49,650 bases of DNA from Acidobacteriota bacterium (GTDB lineage: Bacteria > Acidobacteriota > Terriglobia > Terriglobales > Acidobacteriaceae), in NCBI GenBank assembly GCA_013290025.1, contig JABCYV010000007.1:1-49650 (forward strand), given 5' to 3'. Shown piece by piece: positions 29,038 to 40,576 of the stretch. Below the pieces are notes generated by a model. That model was not told the DNA's origin and did no database searches. It saw only the letters and a program-made list of their open reading frames with translations. How positions within the stretch are numbered: position 1 is the first letter of the stretch; the number at the start of each line of letters is the position of its first letter. The translations under genes and the position numbers were made by a program.

Positions 29038-30501
29038 CTAGGACCACACATCACCTGCTTGACACATGGCCCGAGACTGGAAAGTGGCCGTAGGAACCTC
29101 GGACGATGGAAATAACAAATGATGCAGCCGGCGCACCGACTCGTCGGCGTGTGCTTCATCCACCAGAAAGCTGAGACTGCGCTCGGAGGCACCCTGGCAG
29201 ATCATGCGGGTTTCGACATCGGAGACTGCACGAAATACCTGGCTGGCAATCTCTGGTTGCCGCCGAATCTTTTCTCCAACCAGACAAACCAGCGCCTTAT
29301 GATTCTCCCAGCGCAGGTTCGCCATTCCCTTGAGTTCGGCGGCAATGGCGGGAAGGGCTCCAGTCGAGGTCACCAGTAGAGACAAGCCGCCGGGCGATGC
29401 AGAAAGCAGGTCTAGCGTCTGCTGGTGGCGCTCAAATACGTCGCAGACCTCACGCAGCAACTCGGGAGCGAGCCAGCGCACGGGCTCGACGTCAACCACG
29501 GCAATCCTGCGTTTGACGGTAATCGCCTTTACCCGGCCCTCTCCACCGGAGTAGGCCCGGATTTCCGTACCTTCGCAGCCATGATTTCGTGAATTCAGCA
29601 CCCAGACCGGAATATCGTGGCGCATAGCCGGCAGCAACGTCGCGGGATGGAGCACCTTGGCGCCGAAGTACGCGAGTTCAGCCGCCTCATCAAAGCTCAG
29701 CCTGGGCACGCGGCGAGCGTCCGAACAAATCACGGGATCCGTGGTCATGACGCCATCCACGTCAGTCCAGATTTCAATCCGGGTTGCGCGCAGTGCCGCG
29801 CCGACGATTGCAGCGCTGAAGTCCGATCCACCACGTCCTAGAGTGGTTGGGACGCCGTCCCTGGTCGAGCCCACAAAGCCGCCAAGGACGGGGATGCTGC
29901 CGGATTCAAGCAGCGGAAGAAGCGCGGCCTTCAGGCGCTGGTTGGTCTCATCCCACAAGGGCGTGGCCCGGGTGTGCGCGGCATCGGTGATAATGCACTG
30001 TTTCGCATCCAACAGGACCGCATCCAATCCGTCTTTCCACAGTACAGCCTGAACAATCCGGCTGGAAAGCGCTTCTCCCCTGCCCAACAAGTTATCTTGC
30101 GCACGAGGACTGAATTGTCCTTCGGCCGCGATGCTACATAGAGCCTCGTCCAGCGCCTGGAATTCACCTTCCAAATCATTTCGCAAGCGGTCGTAGTTCT
30201 CTCTCTCGAGAAGCTCTGCGGCGATCTGTTCGTGACGTTGCCGGAGACGCTGGACAGCCTCGAGGACAACTTCACGGTCGCCCTCTGCGGCAGCCAGGCC
30301 AGCGGCGAATAACTGGTCAGTAACTTTGGCCAGAGCGCTCACTACAACGACTGGTTTTTGTCGGAGCCGCTCTTTCACAAGTTGACTCACGCGGCGAATA
30401 GCAGATGCGTCCTCGACCGAGGTCCCACCGAATTTCATCACGATACTGTCACTCCGTTGCTGGGCGGCGGCACTTCTGTCTCCACACAATAAGGCATTCA
30501 T
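29038..30501 (-). CDS. lysC: aspartate kinase
   Basis: This enzyme phosphorylates aspartate, the entry step to lysine, threonine, methionine and isoleucine. The 487-aa protein has the kinase motif VMKFGGTSVEDASAI, GRGGSDFSAA and WTDVDGVMTTDPV, then a C-terminal part long enough for the tandem ACT domains that give feedback control. It is a monofunctional aspartokinase; there is no fused homoserine dehydrogenase. AAAGGGAG lies seven nt before the ATG. The gene is preceded by a terminator hairpin and a leader peptide rich in Thr/Ile/Met (30524-30708), which suggests transcription attenuation. Confidence 0.95.
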   Translation of the reverse strand: MNALLCGDRSAAAQQRSDSIVMKFGGTSVEDASAIRRVSQLVKERLRQKPVVVVSALAKVTDQLFAAGLAAAEGDREVVLEAVQRLRQRHEQIAAELLERENYDRLRNDLEGEFQALDEALCSIAAEGQFSPRAQDNLLGRGEALSSRIVQAVLWKDGLDAVLLDAKQCIITDAAHTRATPLWDETNQRLKAALLPLLESGSIPVLGGFVGSTRDGVPTTLGRGGSDFSAAIVGAALRATRIEIWTDVDGVMTTDPVICSDARRVPRLSFDEAAELAYFGAKVLHPATLLPAMRHDIPVWVLNSRNHGCEGTEIRAYSGGEGRVKAITVKRRIAVVDVEPVRWLAPELLREVCDVFERHQQTLDLLSASPGGLSLLVTSTGALPAIAAELKGMANLRWENHKALVCLVGEKIRRQPEIASQVFRAVSDVETRMICQGASERSLSFLVDEAHADESVRRLHHLLFPSSEVPTATFQSRAMCQAGDVWS

Positions 30502-30523: not shown

Positions 30524-30563
30524 AAAATAGAAAACCCACCTGCCAGTTGCTTCTGGCGGTGGG
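30524..30563 (-). terminator. attenuator terminator of lysC
   Basis: On the minus strand, CCCACCGCCAG pairs with CTGGC-A-GGTGGG (one bulged A, 6-nt loop) and a U-rich tract TTTTCTATTTT follows. It ends 22 nt before the lysC ATG. Alternative pairings involve the leader: segment 1 (30673-30680) with segment 2 (30614-30621), 8 bp with one G-U; segment 2 (30612-30621) with segment 3 (30550-30559), 9 of 10 bp. Segment 3 is the inner part of the 5' arm of the terminator plus its loop. The 2:3 helix would prevent termination. Confidence 0.75.
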
Positions 30564-30597
30564 TCTTGTTGGCTGTTAGATCTATGTGTTTCTCAGC

Positions 30598-30708
30598 TCA
30601 CCAGACGTCCTCCCCCAGAAGACACATAATTCGTGTCGACATGGCTGTGCCTATCGATGTAATTCGCTTAGCCTTCCGGGAATTTGAGGTCATGGCTGCT
30701 CGAGACAT
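30598..30708 (-). CDS. putative lysC leader peptide (36 aa, Thr/Ile/Met-rich)
   Basis: The ORF stands between the small gene at 30724 and the lysC terminator. Codons 14-28 read KRITSIGTAMSTRIM; nine of these 15 residues (K, I, T, M) derive from aspartate, and the block recalls the KRIST start of E. coli thrL. A ribosome slowed at the early Lys/Ile/Thr codons would cover segment 1 and free segment 2 to form the antiterminator with the 5' arm of the terminator. An in-frame ATG at 30693 is another possible start. No strong ribosome binding site or promoter is visible just upstream. No experimental counterpart is known to me. Confidence 0.55.
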   Translation of the reverse strand: MSRAAMTSNSRKAKRITSIGTAMSTRIMCLLGEDVW

Positions 30709-36489: not shown

Positions 36490-37227
36490 TTACGTTTCTT
36501 CGCAACTCACCGGAGCTTCAATATGCACTAAGGGCGTTACAGCAGATCCGACGTGCAAGCCGCATTCGGTCTTCTGGAAGCCCGACCACCGTCCAGCTCG
36601 AACGTCTTCTCCGGGCTGAATCGCTCGGGTGCAATGGGTGCATCCGATGCTCGGATAATTGCGGTCGTGCAGGGGGTTATAGGGGACGTTGTGCTTGCGG
36701 ACGTAATTCCACACCTTCTCAGTCGTCCAGTCCGCAATGGGGTTGATCTTGACCAGCTTAAACTTCGCGTCCCACTCCACCTTCCGGGCTGAGGATCGTG
36801 CGGCGGTCTGGTCCCTGCGGATTGCTGTGACCCACGCCCGGAGCTCGGAGAGTCTCTGTTTAAGCGGTTCTATTTTTCTGAGGCTGCAGCATCGATCGGG
36901 ATCACTGGCCCAAAGCGCTCGCCCATGCTCGCGCTCCTGCTCCTCCGGCGTCAAAGTTGAGTAGACCCTTTCCACCTTGATTCCGTAGCGCTTTTCGACG
37001 CGATCAATCAGATCGTAGGTTTCGGGAAACAGGAACTCAGTATCCAGCGTGAAGACCTTCAGATCGGGCACTGCCCGCGAGGCAATGTCAATCAGCGCCA
37101 TGCCTTCGATGCCGAATCCCGAAGCCATCGCTATGTCTTTCTTGAAAGTTGTGAACGCCCAGCGCAAAACTTCTTCGGCAGTCCATTGCTCGGCCGGAAT
37201 TTGTACCTGCTCCCAGTGATCTTTCAC
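36490..37227 (-). CDS. cysH: assimilatory APS reductase (CysH family)
   Basis: The 245-aa protein reduces activated sulfate to sulfite using thioredoxin. It keeps the cysteines that bind a [4Fe-4S] cluster in APS-type reductases: Cys113-Cys114 (DPDRCCSLRK) and Cys196/Cys199 (GCTHC). The redox-active Cys222 is in KTECGLH near the C-terminus. APS rather than PAPS is therefore the expected substrate, so no APS kinase is needed. The GTG at 37227 overlaps the cobA stop (GTGA). It is the last gene of the nirA-cysG-cobA-cysH run. Confidence 0.94.
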   Translation of the reverse strand: MKDHWEQVQIPAEQWTAEEVLRWAFTTFKKDIAMASGFGIEGMALIDIASRAVPDLKVFTLDTEFLFPETYDLIDRVEKRYGIKVERVYSTLTPEEQEREHGRALWASDPDRCCSLRKIEPLKQRLSELRAWVTAIRRDQTAARSSARKVEWDAKFKLVKINPIADWTTEKVWNYVRKHNVPYNPLHDRNYPSIGCTHCTRAIQPGEDVRAGRWSGFQKTECGLHVGSAVTPLVHIEAPVSCEET

Positions 37228-38057
37228 TCCGATTGCTCCTGAGTCCCACGAAATTGCTCACTCTCAGCTGAGGAACTGGCCTGCGCTACCAATGGAAGAA
37301 CTTGTTGCTCCAGACTCGACCAAGCGAATTCCCCCCGCAAAGAGGTGTGGTCGGCAAAACGCACGACTTCCCCGACGACCAGCAAAGTGGGAGCTGGTAG
37401 TCTGGGAGCAAGAGGTAAATCCTTTAGGGTTGTTCGATGAACTTGTTGTTCTGGCGATGTGGCTTGCGAAATGATGGCGCAGGGAGTTGCTTGCTTTAAC
37501 CCGGCTTCAATCAGGCGGGCAGCGGTGCTCTGGTACTGGTAACCAGGCATGTAGATCACCAGCGTGGCATCGGACGGCAGGTGTGCTGGCCATTTGCTCG
37601 AGTCAGCGCCATTCGAATGATGGCTGGTAAGAAAAATCAATGCAGATGAAATCTGGCGATGAGTCAGGGGGATATTTGTTGCCGCAGCCGCGCCCAAAGC
37701 AGCCGTCACTCCGGGAACAATCTCGAAATCAACGCCGGCTTGACGTAGAGCTTCAATCTCTTCGCCTGCGCGACCGAAGATGAGCGGGTCTCCGCTTTTC
37801 AGGCGAACTACCTGCAATCCCAGCGCCGCAAATTGGATCAGGAGAGAGTTAATCCCCTCCTGGCTGATGCTCTTCCATCCGCAGCGCTTTCCTACATTTC
37901 GGACTTCAGCCGTCGACGGAATGAAAGCAAGAATCTCCGGCCCGATCAGATCGTCATGCAACACCACATCAGCTCTTTTCAAGGCTTTGTGCGCTTTCAG
38001 GGTGAGCAGTTCGGGATCGCCCGGCCCGGCGCCTACTAGATAAACTTTTCCCGTCAC
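37224..38057 (-). CDS. cobA: uroporphyrinogen-III C-methyltransferase (SUMT)
   Basis: The enzyme uses two S-adenosylmethionine molecules to make precorrin-2, the first step to siroheme. The 277-aa protein has the N-terminal block KVYLVGAGPGDPELLTLKA, the RLKSGDPLIFGRAGEE motif and VPGVTAALGAAA, all typical of tetrapyrrole methylases. The GTG at 38057 overlaps the stop of the upstream gene (GTGA) and has AAGGAGGAG five nt before it. The C-terminal ~25 residues are Ser/Glu/Gln-rich and probably disordered. It supplies siroheme to the reductase two genes upstream. Confidence 0.94.
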   Translation of the reverse strand: MTGKVYLVGAGPGDPELLTLKAHKALKRADVVLHDDLIGPEILAFIPSTAEVRNVGKRCGWKSISQEGINSLLIQFAALGLQVVRLKSGDPLIFGRAGEEIEALRQAGVDFEIVPGVTAALGAAAATNIPLTHRQISSALIFLTSHHSNGADSSKWPAHLPSDATLVIYMPGYQYQSTAARLIEAGLKQATPCAIISQATSPEQQVHRTTLKDLPLAPRLPAPTLLVVGEVVRFADHTSLRGEFAWSSLEQQVLPLVAQASSSAESEQFRGTQEQSE

Positions 38058-38665
38058 GAAATCTCCTCCTTGCCGCGAAGACTCGTGCCGGTCGCGGACT
38101 CAAACGCGCTGCGACTCGCCAGCTCGTGCAGCAGATGCCGCCTGTCCTCGGGATCAATGTCGCTGGCAAATAGTTGGCGCCTGATCTCCCCCAACTGCTC
38201 CAGCCATCCAGCGTATTCGGATCCGAACTGCGCTTCGAGTTCCCTTCGCAGCCGCTGAGCGAGCGCGGGACTATGGCCAGCAGTCGAGATGGCAACTTGA
38301 AGATTTCCTCGACGTACCACCGCCGGGTAATAAAAATCGCAGCGTTCGGGATCATCCACAGCATTGCAAAGAATGTTCCGCCGGTGCGCTTCTCGGAAGA
38401 TGACTTCATTCACCGCAGTAGAATTAGTCGCGGCAACTACTAGAACAACGCCGTCCAGATCGGAAGCTTCAAAGTTTCGCTGCTCCCAGGTAATCACTCC
38501 AGCGTGGGCCCAGTCACCAACCGTCGCAGTCGCGTGCGGCGCTACAACTCGGACTCTGGCCCCTGCCGTGATCAAGCTACGAATCTTTCCCTGGCCGATC
38601 GTGCCCGCTCCCACGACTAAGCACGGTCGATCGTCGAGTTTTAGAAAGATTGGAAACAAGCTCAT
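38054..38665 (-). CDS. precorrin-2 dehydrogenase / sirohydrochlorin ferrochelatase
   Basis: A 203-aa counterpart of the N-terminal half of CysG or of Met8p, which oxidises precorrin-2 with NAD and inserts iron to form siroheme. It shows LFPIFLKLDDRPCLVVGAG, the nucleotide-binding loop VGAGTIGQGK, LCNAVDDPERCDFYYPA and ISTAGHSPALAQRLR. The ATG at 38665 gives a normal family start; an ATG at 38704 overlaps the end of the reductase gene and adds 13 residues unlike the family. It lies 22 nt after the reductase stop. Confidence 0.92.
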   Translation of the reverse strand: MSLFPIFLKLDDRPCLVVGAGTIGQGKIRSLITAGARVRVVAPHATATVGDWAHAGVITWEQRNFEASDLDGVVLVVAATNSTAVNEVIFREAHRRNILCNAVDDPERCDFYYPAVVRRGNLQVAISTAGHSPALAQRLRRELEAQFGSEYAGWLEQLGEIRRQLFASDIDPEDRRHLLHELASRSAFESATGTSLRGKEEIS

Positions 38666-38687
38666 AGCTTTACCCTTTTTCGCATGA

Positions 38688-40388
38688 CTAGCCTTCCACC
38701 ACATGCGGCGCCCGCCCAGGCGACGGATCCCTCGCTACCGCAGCCACCAACTCACCCGCCAGGCACTCGCGCAACTCCTCATCGCTGTATCTCGCAAAGA
38801 ACCGCCGCAGATTCTCTCCTGGCAGCCGTTCATCCAAATAGCGCCGCAGCAGGCGCTCGATCGCGTCCGGAACCTCACTAGCCAAGCAGCGATAGCCGAT
38901 GGGCCGGGCCACTGATTGGTGCAGCCCGACCGCGCCGCCCACACAAAAGTAGTAGGCGTCCAGCATGCGGTCTCCAACTTTGATCTTCTTGCCCTCGATG
39001 CCAACGTCGGCAATCCAATGCTGGCCGCAACTGTTGGGGCATCCGGTGACATGCAGCTTCAGGTGTTGGTCGAAGCCGGGGAGTCGTTCTTCCAATTCCT
39101 CTACCAGCCAACGGGAAAAACTCTTGGTTTCTGTGATCGCGAGCTTGCAGAATTCAGAACCGCTGCAGGCAATCGCGCCGCGCCAGAACGGCGAGCCGGC
39201 AACTAGGAGGCCGGCACTGTTCAATTGGCTCGCCAGCGCATCCACGTTCTGGCGCGGCACATTCACGATTAATAGGTTTTGCATGTTGGTGGTGCGCAGT
39301 TCGCCGTTGGCGAAACGGTCGGACAGATCTGCCGCGGCTTGCATTTGCTGAGCCGTAATCCGGCCACGCAGCACTGCCGCTCCCACATAGCAATACCCAG
39401 GCTGTTTCTGTTGATGGATTCCAACATGATCGCGATAGACGTCCTGGGGTGGCCACTCCTCTGCCGCGGGTTCCAGTCGGAAACCGATTCGCTGTTCCAG
39501 TTCGTGCTGAAAACTATCGGCGGTCCAACCGTGCTTCAGGAAGAGGAATTTGAGACGGGCCCGCTCCCGGTTTTCCCGTAGCTTTTCGCTTTCCCGGAAA
39601 ATCTCGGCAATTCCCTTGAGAACCGGGATTACTTGCTGCCGTCTCACGAAGGCATTCAGACGCACGGCCAGATGCGGGTCGGTAGATAAGCCTCCACCTA
39701 CGCGCAAGGAGTAACCGATCTCCGAATCGTCGCCAGCACGGCGGATTGCGGTCAGCCCAACGTCATTGATTTCGGGATAGGCGCACCACACTTTGCAGCC
39801 GGTAATGCAAATCTTGAATTTGCGCGGGAGATTGTAAAACTCGGCATTGCCCACGAAAAACTGATTGGCTTCGAGCCCCAGCGGAGAAGCATCGCAGATC
39901 TCATCCGCATCCACGCCGGCCAAAGGGCAGCCGGTGATATTGCGGGTGTCGTCGCCGCAAGAACCCATGGTAGTAAGGCCGGCACGCCAGAGCGCATCCA
40001 GGACTTCTGGCAAGCTCTCGATCGTCACCCAGTGCAGCTGAATATTCTGTCTTACAGTCAGGTCCGCCGTGCCTTTGGCATAGCGCTCGGTGACCGCTGC
40101 GATGGTTCGAAGTTGGTCGGAACGCAACAGGCCGCCCGGAATCCGGATACGGACCATGAAGTACGGAAGCGCCTTGCCCTCACCATTCTTTCCGCCAACC
40201 ACGCCGGCGCCGTCGCCCTGGGTGTAAACCCCCCACCAACGGAAATAGGTACCCAGCCATTCTGGGGTGATGGAGCCAAATCCCTCGCGCGCAAAGCGCC
40301 GAATTTCGTCGAGGCCTTCCCACGGGTTCTTTTCCCGTTTGAGCCGTTCGACGCGCTGTGCTTTCGTCTCTGTGCCTGTGTTGGACAT
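38688..40388 (-). CDS. nirA: ferredoxin-type sulfite (or nitrite) reductase
   Basis: The 566-aa siroheme enzyme carries the shared [4Fe-4S]-siroheme ligands Cys408, Cys414, Cys450 and Cys454 (ACSGSEFC and TGCPNSCG). Two ferredoxin-reductase-like half domains are present, as in mycobacterial NirA/SirA. Sequence alone does not separate sulfite from nitrite reductases. The operon with APS reductase and siroheme genes, and the poly-Cys leader in front, argue for sulfite. The ATG at 40388 follows directly on the U-tract of the attenuator. Four codons upstream are open but lie inside the hairpin. The only Shine-Dalgarno-like text (GGTGGG) is the 3' arm of that hairpin. Confidence 0.92.
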   Translation of the reverse strand: MSNTGTETKAQRVERLKREKNPWEGLDEIRRFAREGFGSITPEWLGTYFRWWGVYTQGDGAGVVGGKNGEGKALPYFMVRIRIPGGLLRSDQLRTIAAVTERYAKGTADLTVRQNIQLHWVTIESLPEVLDALWRAGLTTMGSCGDDTRNITGCPLAGVDADEICDASPLGLEANQFFVGNAEFYNLPRKFKICITGCKVWCAYPEINDVGLTAIRRAGDDSEIGYSLRVGGGLSTDPHLAVRLNAFVRRQQVIPVLKGIAEIFRESEKLRENRERARLKFLFLKHGWTADSFQHELEQRIGFRLEPAAEEWPPQDVYRDHVGIHQQKQPGYCYVGAAVLRGRITAQQMQAAADLSDRFANGELRTTNMQNLLIVNVPRQNVDALASQLNSAGLLVAGSPFWRGAIACSGSEFCKLAITETKSFSRWLVEELEERLPGFDQHLKLHVTGCPNSCGQHWIADVGIEGKKIKVGDRMLDAYYFCVGGAVGLHQSVARPIGYRCLASEVPDAIERLLRRYLDERLPGENLRRFFARYSDEELRECLAGELVAAVARDPSPGRAPHVVEG

Positions 40389-40426
40389 AAAAAAACCCAC
40401 CGCCAGTAGCCTGCACTGGCGGTGGG
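40389..40426 (-). terminator. attenuator terminator of the sulfite-reductase operon
   Basis: On the minus strand, CCCACCGCCAG (40416-40426) pairs perfectly over 11 bp with CTGGCGGTGGG (40396-40406) around a 9-nt loop. Seven U residues (40389-40395) follow and touch the nirA ATG. Competing helices exist: segment 1 CGCCGGTG (40511-40518) with segment 2 CACTGGCG (40473-40480), 8 bp with one G-U; and segment 2 with segment 3 CGCCAGTG (40414-40421), 8 perfect bp. The 2:3 helix excludes the terminator. Confidence 0.88.
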
Positions 40427-40452
40427 TATAATTGCCGATTTCTAAATGAAAC

Positions 40453-40539
40453 TTAGCTCAGCAGCCTCCCTACGCCAGTGGACGCACCCGTACAACAACA
40501 AAAGCAACAGCACCGGCGAAGCTGATTAGAGGCCAACAT
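40453..40539 (-). CDS. poly-cysteine leader peptide (28 aa) of the sulfite-reductase operon
   Basis: The minus-strand ORF starts at an ATG only nine nt after a strong -10 element, so its mRNA is probably leaderless. Codons 8-18 read RRCCCFCCCTG; the six Cys codons (40492-40512) lie between attenuator segments 1 and 2. The stop TAA is at 40453-40455, 27 nt before the terminator stem. Stalling for lack of Cys-tRNA would cover segment 1, free segment 2 to pair with segment 3 and allow read-through into nirA. Similar leaderless poly-Cys ORFs act as cysteine attenuators in mycobacteria; I know of none described in Acidobacteriota. The peptide itself probably has no further role. Confidence 0.85.
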   Translation of the reverse strand: MLASNQLRRCCCFCCCTGASTGVGRLLS

Positions 40540-40547
40540 CAGAGTGG

Positions 40548-40576
40548 ATAGTAGGCGAACTGCATAGACCTGTCAA
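40548..40576 (-). promoter_or_regulatory. sigma-70 promoter of the sulfite-assimilation operon
   Basis: On the minus strand, a perfect -35 TTGACA (40571-40576) is followed after exactly 17 nt by TACTAT (40548-40553, 4/6 match to TATAAT). The expected start is at about 40539-40541, at or within two nt of the leader-peptide ATG. This is the best promoter match found in the window. Confidence 0.75.

Follow-up and report, generated by a model that had tools for sequence, protein, structure and literature searches.

A very probable cysteine attenuator upstream of nirA in an Acidobacteriota genome, and related leaders at other sulfur genes of the phylum

Leader-peptide transcription attenuators of the trp and his type are known from Proteobacteria. 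For cysteine, an initial annotation of the locus reported here referred to known poly-Cys attenuators in mycobacteria, and poly-Cys leaders are indeed described there, but as leaderless short ORFs that act by translation attenuation (Canestrari 2020, via PMC13236596). The cys operons of Actinobacteria are preceded by Cys leader peptides, and the portion of the same source that deals with Mycobacterium presents its leaders as lacking a conserved terminator-type hairpin (PMC1262725). A cysS leader motif of Rhodobacterales, uORFC-8-2, contains Cys codons and an intrinsic terminator and was proposed to work by ribosome-mediated attenuation (PMC8632094). Leaderless attenuator peptides are represented by trpL of S. 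meliloti (PMC7298713) and by leuL2, ilvL and thrL of S. lividans (PMC8079986). A survey from 2010 predicted attenuators in Acidobacteria and comparable phyla and states in a passage that hardly any of them had assigned functions (PMC2965389), and a leader-gene survey that includes Acidobacteria concerns reinitiation, its main text making no mention of cysteine (PMC4833913). Among the matches listed from full-text literature with few subscription papers, there was no Cys attenuator before a tRNA gene and no cysteine attenuator described for Acidobacteriota, the latter in agreement with the initial annotation, which knew of none.

We analysed a stretch of DNA of 49,650 nucleotides from an Acidobacteriota bacterium, hereafter the window. 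The leader of its nirA gene very probably senses charged tRNA-Cys and acts as a ribosome-mediated attenuator of transcription. The initial annotation had read it as a Cys attenuator before a sulfite-reductase operon, and this reading survived the conservation check of the Cys run and the helices. Sequence comparison supports it by the Cys run, the promoter spacing, the terminator, the antiterminator pairing and the gene context, and we infer the stalling of the ribosome, the direction of the response, a leaderless start and a four-gene transcript. Between 40576 and 40389 on the minus strand, a -35/-10 pair, a 28-codon ORF (MLASNQLRRCCCFCCCTGASTGVGRLLS), a 14-bp terminator and a U-run adjoining the nirA ATG were found, with the following features.

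40571..40576, minus strand: -35 box TTGACA, from the promoter scan
40548..40553, minus strand: -10 box TACTAT, from the promoter scan, 8 nt 5' of the leader ATG
40453..40539, minus strand: leader ORF of 28 codons and TAA, MLASNQLRRCCCFCCCTGASTGVGRLLS, from the sequence and relatives
40511..40518, minus strand: segment 1 (CGCCGGTG), from the MFE fold, ending within the first Cys codon
40473..40480, minus strand: segment 2 (CACTGGCG), within the leader ORF, about 12 nt beyond the last Cys codon
40434..40462, minus strand: predicted stop-codon hairpin, the upper stem of the antiterminator, which holds the leader stop codon
40414..40421, minus strand: segment 3 (CGCCAGTG), a perfect complement to segment 2, in the terminator 5' arm
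40395..40427, minus strand: intrinsic terminator stem-loop 3:4 of 14 bp, from the terminator scan and covariation
40389..40395, minus strand: U-run TTTTTTT, read from the sequence, adjoining the nirA ATG (40388-40386)

The TTGACA/TACTAT pair (40576-40548) has a 17-nt spacer and 10/12 matches in the promoter scan, and the transcript would start at about 40541-40539, i.e. leaderless. The leader peptide reads M-L-A-S-N-Q-L-R-R-C-C-C-F-C-C-C-T-G-A-S-T-G-V-G-R-L-L-S, its Cys codons being 10-12 (40512-40504) and 14-16 (40500-40492). When the A of the ATG is counted as 1, segment 1 occupies 22-29, the Cys codons 28-36 and 40-48, segment 2 60-67, the stop codon 85-87, and segment 3 119-126. The MFE structure of the leader combines 1:2 with 3:4 (z -3.58; 0/200 shuffles equally stable). 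These positions agree with the initial annotation, which had placed the promoter, the 28-codon ORF with CCCFCCC and a terminator fused to the nirA ATG here, had paired segments 1-4 as 1:2, 2:3 and 3:4, and had segment 1 ending at the first Cys codon and segment 2 past the Cys run. Since 0.6-0.9 such sites each are expected by chance in 701 bases, the promoter and terminator matches of the window are weak when taken alone. The pattern TGYTGYTGYNNNTGYTGY occurs six times across the 4.9-Mb genome; four of the five other matches (L121-L124) overlap another open frame of more than 200 codons, and the fifth (L120) does not. Rfam 15 at the gathering score gave 0 matches in the window and 0 in the loci of 10 relatives, and three lax matches (E 0.079-0.44) look like chance. 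A ribosome waiting at a Cys codon in its A site would cover or border segment 1 and, given a footprint that usually reaches about 15 nt beyond the P site, would leave segment 2 just clear. A ribosome placed at the stop codon would sit within the hairpin at 40462-40434.

Behind the leader lie four genes on the same strand, which may form one transcript.

38688..40388, minus strand: nirA, ferredoxin-type sulfite/nitrite reductase, likely a sulfite reductase (profile and structure match)
38054..38704, minus strand: siroheme synthase N-terminal domain, precorrin-2 dehydrogenase (profile match)
37224..38057, minus strand: uroporphyrinogen-III C-methyltransferase (profile match)
36490..37227, minus strand: cysH, APS/PAPS reductase (profile match)

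A glutamate synthase gene comes next after cysH, downstream of the operon. The best PDB match of the window NirA is M. tuberculosis NirA (1zj8), whose entry is named nitrite reductase and which we take to be a sulfite reductase, and the NCBIfam nitrite reductase and NirA models match below their cut-offs. It is the operon context, with cysH and the siroheme genes, and not the sequence that argues for sulfite as the substrate; together with the 1zj8 match it makes a sulfite reductase likely. Of the regulated genes proposed initially (sulfite reductase, siroheme synthesis and APS reductase), the siroheme genes and cysH are backed by profiles, and the sulfite reductase is likely by context.

The conservation of the poly-Cys leader is decisive for the element being real. 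NirA relatives were taken from 30 loci of 396 phylum genomes and from the best 80 among named genome contigs, 110 in all, of which 103 were distinct and had at least 300 nt readable upstream; seven were dropped as duplicates (L058, L109), for less than 300 nt upstream (L060, L074, L081, L082) or for an N run (L062). A poly-Cys sORF, defined by at least 4 Cys in 9 codons, was present on the sense strand in 65 of these 103 distinct upstream regions (30 loci plus best 80), compared with 1 on the antisense strand, while dinucleotide shuffling, repeated 20 times, gave 0.9 on average and never more than 2; this answers the check that the initial annotation had proposed for the Cys run. The main clade has a leader consensus, e.g. 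CCCTCCCCACVCSGAGRLLT, with conserved C-terminal residues like SGAGRLLT, and the number of Cys and their neighbours vary widely among leaders. Cys accounts for 280/1164 codons in 40 leaders vs 79/6440 in twelve window genes, and the ratio of TGT to TGC is 178:102 in the former vs 21:58 in the latter.

No Cys run was detected at the set threshold in 38 of the 103 upstream regions, 17 of which are titled Rokubacteria or Methylomirabilota. Re-inspection of 26 of the 38 yielded 13 with a candidate leaderless ORF of 3-6 Cys, a number below the threshold and counted without a chance control, and 13 with no acceptable leader ORF; no leader was seen by eye upstream of nirA in L084, L085 and L088. Loci titled Methylomirabilota or Rokubacteria, such as L051 and L066, encode NirA proteins up to 75% identical to that of the window, and no leader was found there. 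These loci reflect either horizontal transfer or mis-binned contigs.

A promoter with at least 8/12 matches was found in 60 of 64 Cys-run leaders, and in 58 of these 60 the first in-frame ATG or GTG lies 5-13 nt after the -10 hexamer, whereas a start at this distance was found in 1/60 and 2/60 for the other two frames. Because the start codon follows the -10 box so closely in 58/60 leaders, the leader mRNA is probably leaderless, and the gap of 5-13 nt leaves little room for a Shine-Dalgarno site. A promoter-plus-ATG pattern run over the window's own genome was too loose for counting leaderless genes.

A terminator-like hairpin with a T-tract was found in 64/64 Cys-run leaders by a search without a chance control. 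In an alignment of 40 nirA-type leaders (A1), 8 of the 14 pairs of the terminator stem changed on both sides, and the covariation score of 0.144, vs 0.068 for shuffled alignments, was reached by 0/500 shuffles. The 3:4 hairpin could also act on translation by hiding the ribosome-binding site of nirA, which stalling would then free. In the window, arm 4 carries GGTGGG just before the nirA ATG, and the hairpin would hide any Shine-Dalgarno site there; several mycobacterial cysteine genes are under translation attenuation according to the account in PMC13236596. In many relatives, however, the hairpin ends 20 to more than 70 nt before the equivalent of the nirA start, with a T-tract behind it. 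Since the T-run, which only a terminator needs, is conserved and the distance between hairpin and gene is variable, translational attenuation is improbable as the general explanation. In the window, whose hairpin arm adjoins the nirA ATG, the leader may act on both transcription and translation.

The antiterminator of the transcription attenuator extends beyond 2:3: this helix forms the base of a long hairpin that carries the leader stop codon in its upper stem. The 11 pairs of 2:3 were paired in 89.8% of cells vs 34-47% when the helix was slid. Covariation is weak because the helix is almost invariant within the main clade: two pairs have double changes, and 369/500 shuffles were as high; the score of 0.045 was reached by 26/500 shuffles and was lower than in five of six slid versions; and, of five measures, two were at the shuffle level and three were reached by 8-26/500 shuffles. 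The helix is supported instead by pairing that is kept across divergent clades with unrelated sequence, namely GCGGGC/GCCCGC in L009, CCUCAGG/CCUGAGG in L029, CUUUGC/GCAAAG in L011 and L021, and UCUCCC/GGGAGA in L102. The stop-codon hairpin was predicted in 40/40 aligned leaders at -5.0 to -10.6 kcal/mol, without a shuffle control, and 2:3 together with this hairpin makes one long imperfect duplex of -9 to -37 kcal/mol when the loci are folded singly. Compared with dinucleotide shuffles, the antiterminator region had a mean z of -2.08, with z below 0 in 60/64 leaders and below -1.5 in 50/64; z was above 0 in the remaining four (L002, L025, L097, L098).

RNAalifold on A1 recovered the terminator and, where the alignment is poor, neither 1:2 nor the stop-codon hairpin, and these two were assessed per sequence for this reason. 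The mean probability that segment 2 pairs to its 5' side was 0.72 in the 40 leaders and lay above the shuffled mean in 39/40, with at most 3/60 shuffles as high in 17/40; the 1:2 helix is weak in four (L068, L069, L070, L040). In the window this probability was 0.98 vs 0.45 for shuffled sequences (0/60 as high). The helices were the second item that the initial annotation had offered for checking: 3:4 covaries and 1:2 lies above the shuffled mean in all but one leader, but the covariation of 2:3 is weak. When the 5' side was masked as by a stalled ribosome, the pairing of the terminator 5' arm increased in 57/66 loci, with means of 0.59 masked, 0.46 unmasked and 0.44 shuffled. The effect was matched by at most 3/60 shuffles in 15/66 loci, and in none of the 14 scored among L011-L030. 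For the window leader, masking hardly changed the pairing of segment 3 at equilibrium (0.75 vs 0.74), so the switch there must be kinetic and depend on the order of folding. Four features by which a leader-peptide attenuator is recognized were found: clustered Cys codons, an intrinsic terminator, an antiterminator that excludes it, and a 1:2 protector.

In the proposed mechanism, RNA polymerase would start at or beside the leader AUG, and a ribosome would load onto the leaderless end. When Cys-tRNA is plentiful, the ribosome would pass the Cys codons and arrive at the UAA in the upper stem of the antiterminator; there it would break the antiterminator, or 1:2 would re-form behind it, so that 3:4 could fold and transcription would end immediately ahead of nirA. 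With Cys-tRNA scarce, the ribosome would halt on the Cys codons and cover segment 1; segment 2 would stay free, the long 2:3 hairpin would form ahead of the synthesis of segment 4, and transcription would continue through nirA, the siroheme genes and cysH.

A covariance model built from the nirA leaders (R1) matched 38 of 60 family genomes at E <= 0.01 and 13 of 199 phylum genomes at E <= 0.001. Outside the family, seven genomes were matched at E <= 0.001: clear poly-Cys leaders were present in G009, G019, G128 and G153, the match in G131 was at a contig end with a weak Cys run, and those in G076 and G133 were rejected as look-alikes without a leader. A fetched subset of the secondary R1 sites was inspected, and the poly-Cys leaders listed here each have a terminator-like hairpin. 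They stand before cysK (L145), cysD (L175, L182), a siroheme synthase gene (L167), uroporphyrinogen methyltransferase genes (L166, and L200 in another family, f11), sulfurtransferase-like genes (L155, L174), small rhodanese genes (L163, L196, L197), a second NirA-like reductase gene (L159, L160), and genes for an SsuA-family transporter (L164), a YeiH-type transporter (L173), a MoaD-like protein (L170), carbonic anhydrase (L146), FadL-type porins (L152, L199) and peroxiredoxin (L154, L169, L177, L180, L181, L208). In three genomes of family f19 (L201, L203, L205), leaders with six or seven consecutive Cys precede cysH, which is followed by a NirA-like gene. The gene names are profile matches or, for L160, L181, L196, L197, L199, L203, L205 and L208, similarity to a named member, and the sulfurtransferase, small rhodanese, YeiH, MoaD and NirA-like matches and the peroxiredoxin of L154 are below curated cut-offs.

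A gene-independent pattern (TGTTGTTG, 58-88 nt, CCCAC, 6-30 nt, GTGGGNTTT) was matched 19 times, in 16 of 396 genomes, and the reversed-pattern control gave 0 among the matches shown. After removal of L256, a duplicate of L243, and L252, which has no Cys leader, the remaining 17 lie at nirA (5, including that of the window), a NirA-like gene (1), cysteine synthase (3), YeiH-type transporters (4), cysD (1), cysH (1) and outer-membrane beta-barrel proteins (2). Several of these sites had been met before: L242 is L205, L243 is L173, and L245, L247 and L249 are the nirA loci L023, L028 and L026. Poly-Cys leaders precede genes for YeiH-type putative sulfate exporters in L243, L244, L250 and L257, which suggests that transporters of this type serve sulfur assimilation in Acidobacteriota. 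Leaders with several Cys were also seen before genes for outer-membrane beta-barrel or FadL-type proteins (L246, L251, L152, L199), for which uptake of sulfur compounds is a possible role.

Poly-Cys leaders were also found at tRNA-Cys genes. One leader, which carries the two labels L149 and L185, stands directly before tRNA-Cys(GCA), with the R1 match ending 5 nt 5' of the tRNA and a promoter of 6/12 matches only. At ten further tRNA-Cys loci a leader, a peroxiredoxin gene and tRNA-Cys follow in this order on one strand. The tRNA-Cys-associated leader loci besides L185 are L154, L169, L177, L180 (the same leader as L189), L188, L189, L191-L195, L218, L219 and L221; the leader lies at 1331-1577 in L185 and at 1642-699 in L154. 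Overall, 11 of the 23 tRNA-Cys loci examined, from 10 of 60 sampled genomes, have the leader; from a later set of 21 loci (L218-L238), 12 were scanned. The other 12 of the 23 have none, L190, with a Cys-containing TTG-start ORF and a poor promoter, being counted among those without; six of the 12, of which five lie beside tRNA-Gly, are more distant matches and lack a poly-Cys sORF. Promoters are harder to recognize in these leaders than at nirA, with at least 8/12 matches in 6/11.

In the peroxiredoxin leaders, as in the nirA leaders, the sequence after the Cys codons is complementary to the terminator arm. The antiterminator z was assessed for peroxiredoxin/tRNA leaders, leaving out L219, and for the lysC site; among the ten in which a terminator was found, including L185 and one from the window genome (L211), it was below 0 in 9/10 and above 0 in L221. 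The automated finder detected no terminator in L189 and L206, although a hairpin with a T-run was seen for the leader of L189 under its other label, L180, and another in the window. L211 is a second poly-Cys leader of the window genome with a terminator, before a peroxiredoxin gene (G000:C143, approximately 1228-1364, MCLRSASVVLCCCLRTPVCG); its promoter was seen in the own-genome promoter pattern scan, and no tRNA was found in the fetched stretch. If read-through feeds the tRNA gene, as gene order and strand suggest, the charging of tRNA-Cys would control its own gene.

The R1 model also matched a second site in the window, before lysC, where the codons differ.

30526..30628, minus strand: R1 match (model positions 58-160, E 1.2e-10), 24 nt upstream of lysC
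30598..30708, minus strand: leader ORF of this site in its longest form, with a provisional start, MSRAAMTSNSRKAKRITSIGTAMSTRIMCLLGEDVW, from the sequence and relatives
29038-30501, minus strand: lysC, behind the second leader

This leader reads ...RKAKRITSIGTAMSTRIM..., a peptide that contains Lys, Arg, Ile, Thr and Met, and the site shows a hairpin and a T-run by sequence. In other genomes, further sites were found before lysC (ten), hom (three) and ilvC (two). Fourteen lysC/hom leader peptides, whose start codons were chosen by hand, were enriched 5.3-fold in Met and 3.4-fold in Thr relative to twelve window genes, with smaller enrichment of Cys (2.3), Ser (1.6), Lys (1.5), Arg (1.4) and Ile (1.3). 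One ilvC site (L150) has a leader containing Ile and Val, and no clear leader was seen at the other (L178). It is plausible that the chassis of the nirA and lysC/hom leaders is common by descent rather than by convergence.

These sites bear on two further explanations of the poly-Cys leaders. The peroxiredoxin genes behind some of them would suit a nascent Cys-rich peptide that senses the metal, oxidant or thiol state through stalling, independently of Cys-tRNA; but the number and neighbours of the Cys residues differ widely from leader to leader, the genes downstream comprise those of cysteine synthesis and tRNA-Cys, and the related leaders of lysC and hom abound in end products of their own pathway, Met and Thr. 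Sensing by codons therefore fits these observations, and sensing by the peptide is quite unlikely. That the sORF encodes a functional small Cys-rich protein, with a terminator that gives partial polarity only, is hardly credible, since the conservation of its SGAGRLLT-like end in the main clade is explained by RNA pairing, as segment 2 and the antiterminator stem lie there, and divergent clades lose this end but keep the Cys codons and the pairing.

With attenuation by charged tRNA-Cys as the preferred reading of the nirA leader, we consider it on balance probable that dispersed poly-Cys attenuators of the leaderless kind run the cysteine metabolism of Acidobacteriota, either in place of a protein regulator or in addition to one. 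Their targets would comprise cysD, cysH, nirA, the siroheme genes, cysteine synthase, sulfurtransferase-like genes, transport genes and a peroxiredoxin-tRNA-Cys operon in which tRNA-Cys charging controls a tRNA-Cys gene, and the chassis of antiterminator and terminator would have been copied with an exchanged codon cassette, to lysC and hom in a Met/Thr version and perhaps also to ilvC. Regulation in Acidobacteriota is sparsely described, and in this case the sequence by itself is enough to assign an amino-acid signal to an entire group of operons. These operons would combine leaderless initiation with attenuation, a tRNA gene apparently under its own charging, and one scaffold with different cassettes.

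Compared with the described systems, this is probably a known attenuation mechanism in a new lineage, with a leaderless start and used for a dispersed cysteine regulon. S. meliloti trpL and S. lividans leuL2, ilvL and thrL share the leaderless ORF and differ in amino acid and phylum. The motif uORFC-8-2, compared by its description, differs in having two tandem Cys codons and in its occurrence before cysS only, in one order of Alphaproteobacteria. The mycobacterial leaders resemble the nirA leader in their poly-Cys ORF before cysteine genes and in being leaderless, a property that promoter spacing suggests for nirA, whereas the nirA leader has a conserved, covarying intrinsic terminator and a competing hairpin. 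With the trp and his attenuators it shares an amino-acid-rich leader ORF, the alternative 1:2, 2:3 and 3:4 helices and an intrinsic terminator before a biosynthetic operon; it differs from them in the amino acid, cysteine, in the position of segment 2 within the leader ORF and of the stop codon in the upper stem of the antiterminator, in the leaderless start indicated by the promoter spacing, and in the phylum. Its novelty lies in a start that is probably leaderless, a stop codon that falls within the antiterminator, a broad cysteine regulon and an operon that contains tRNA-Cys.
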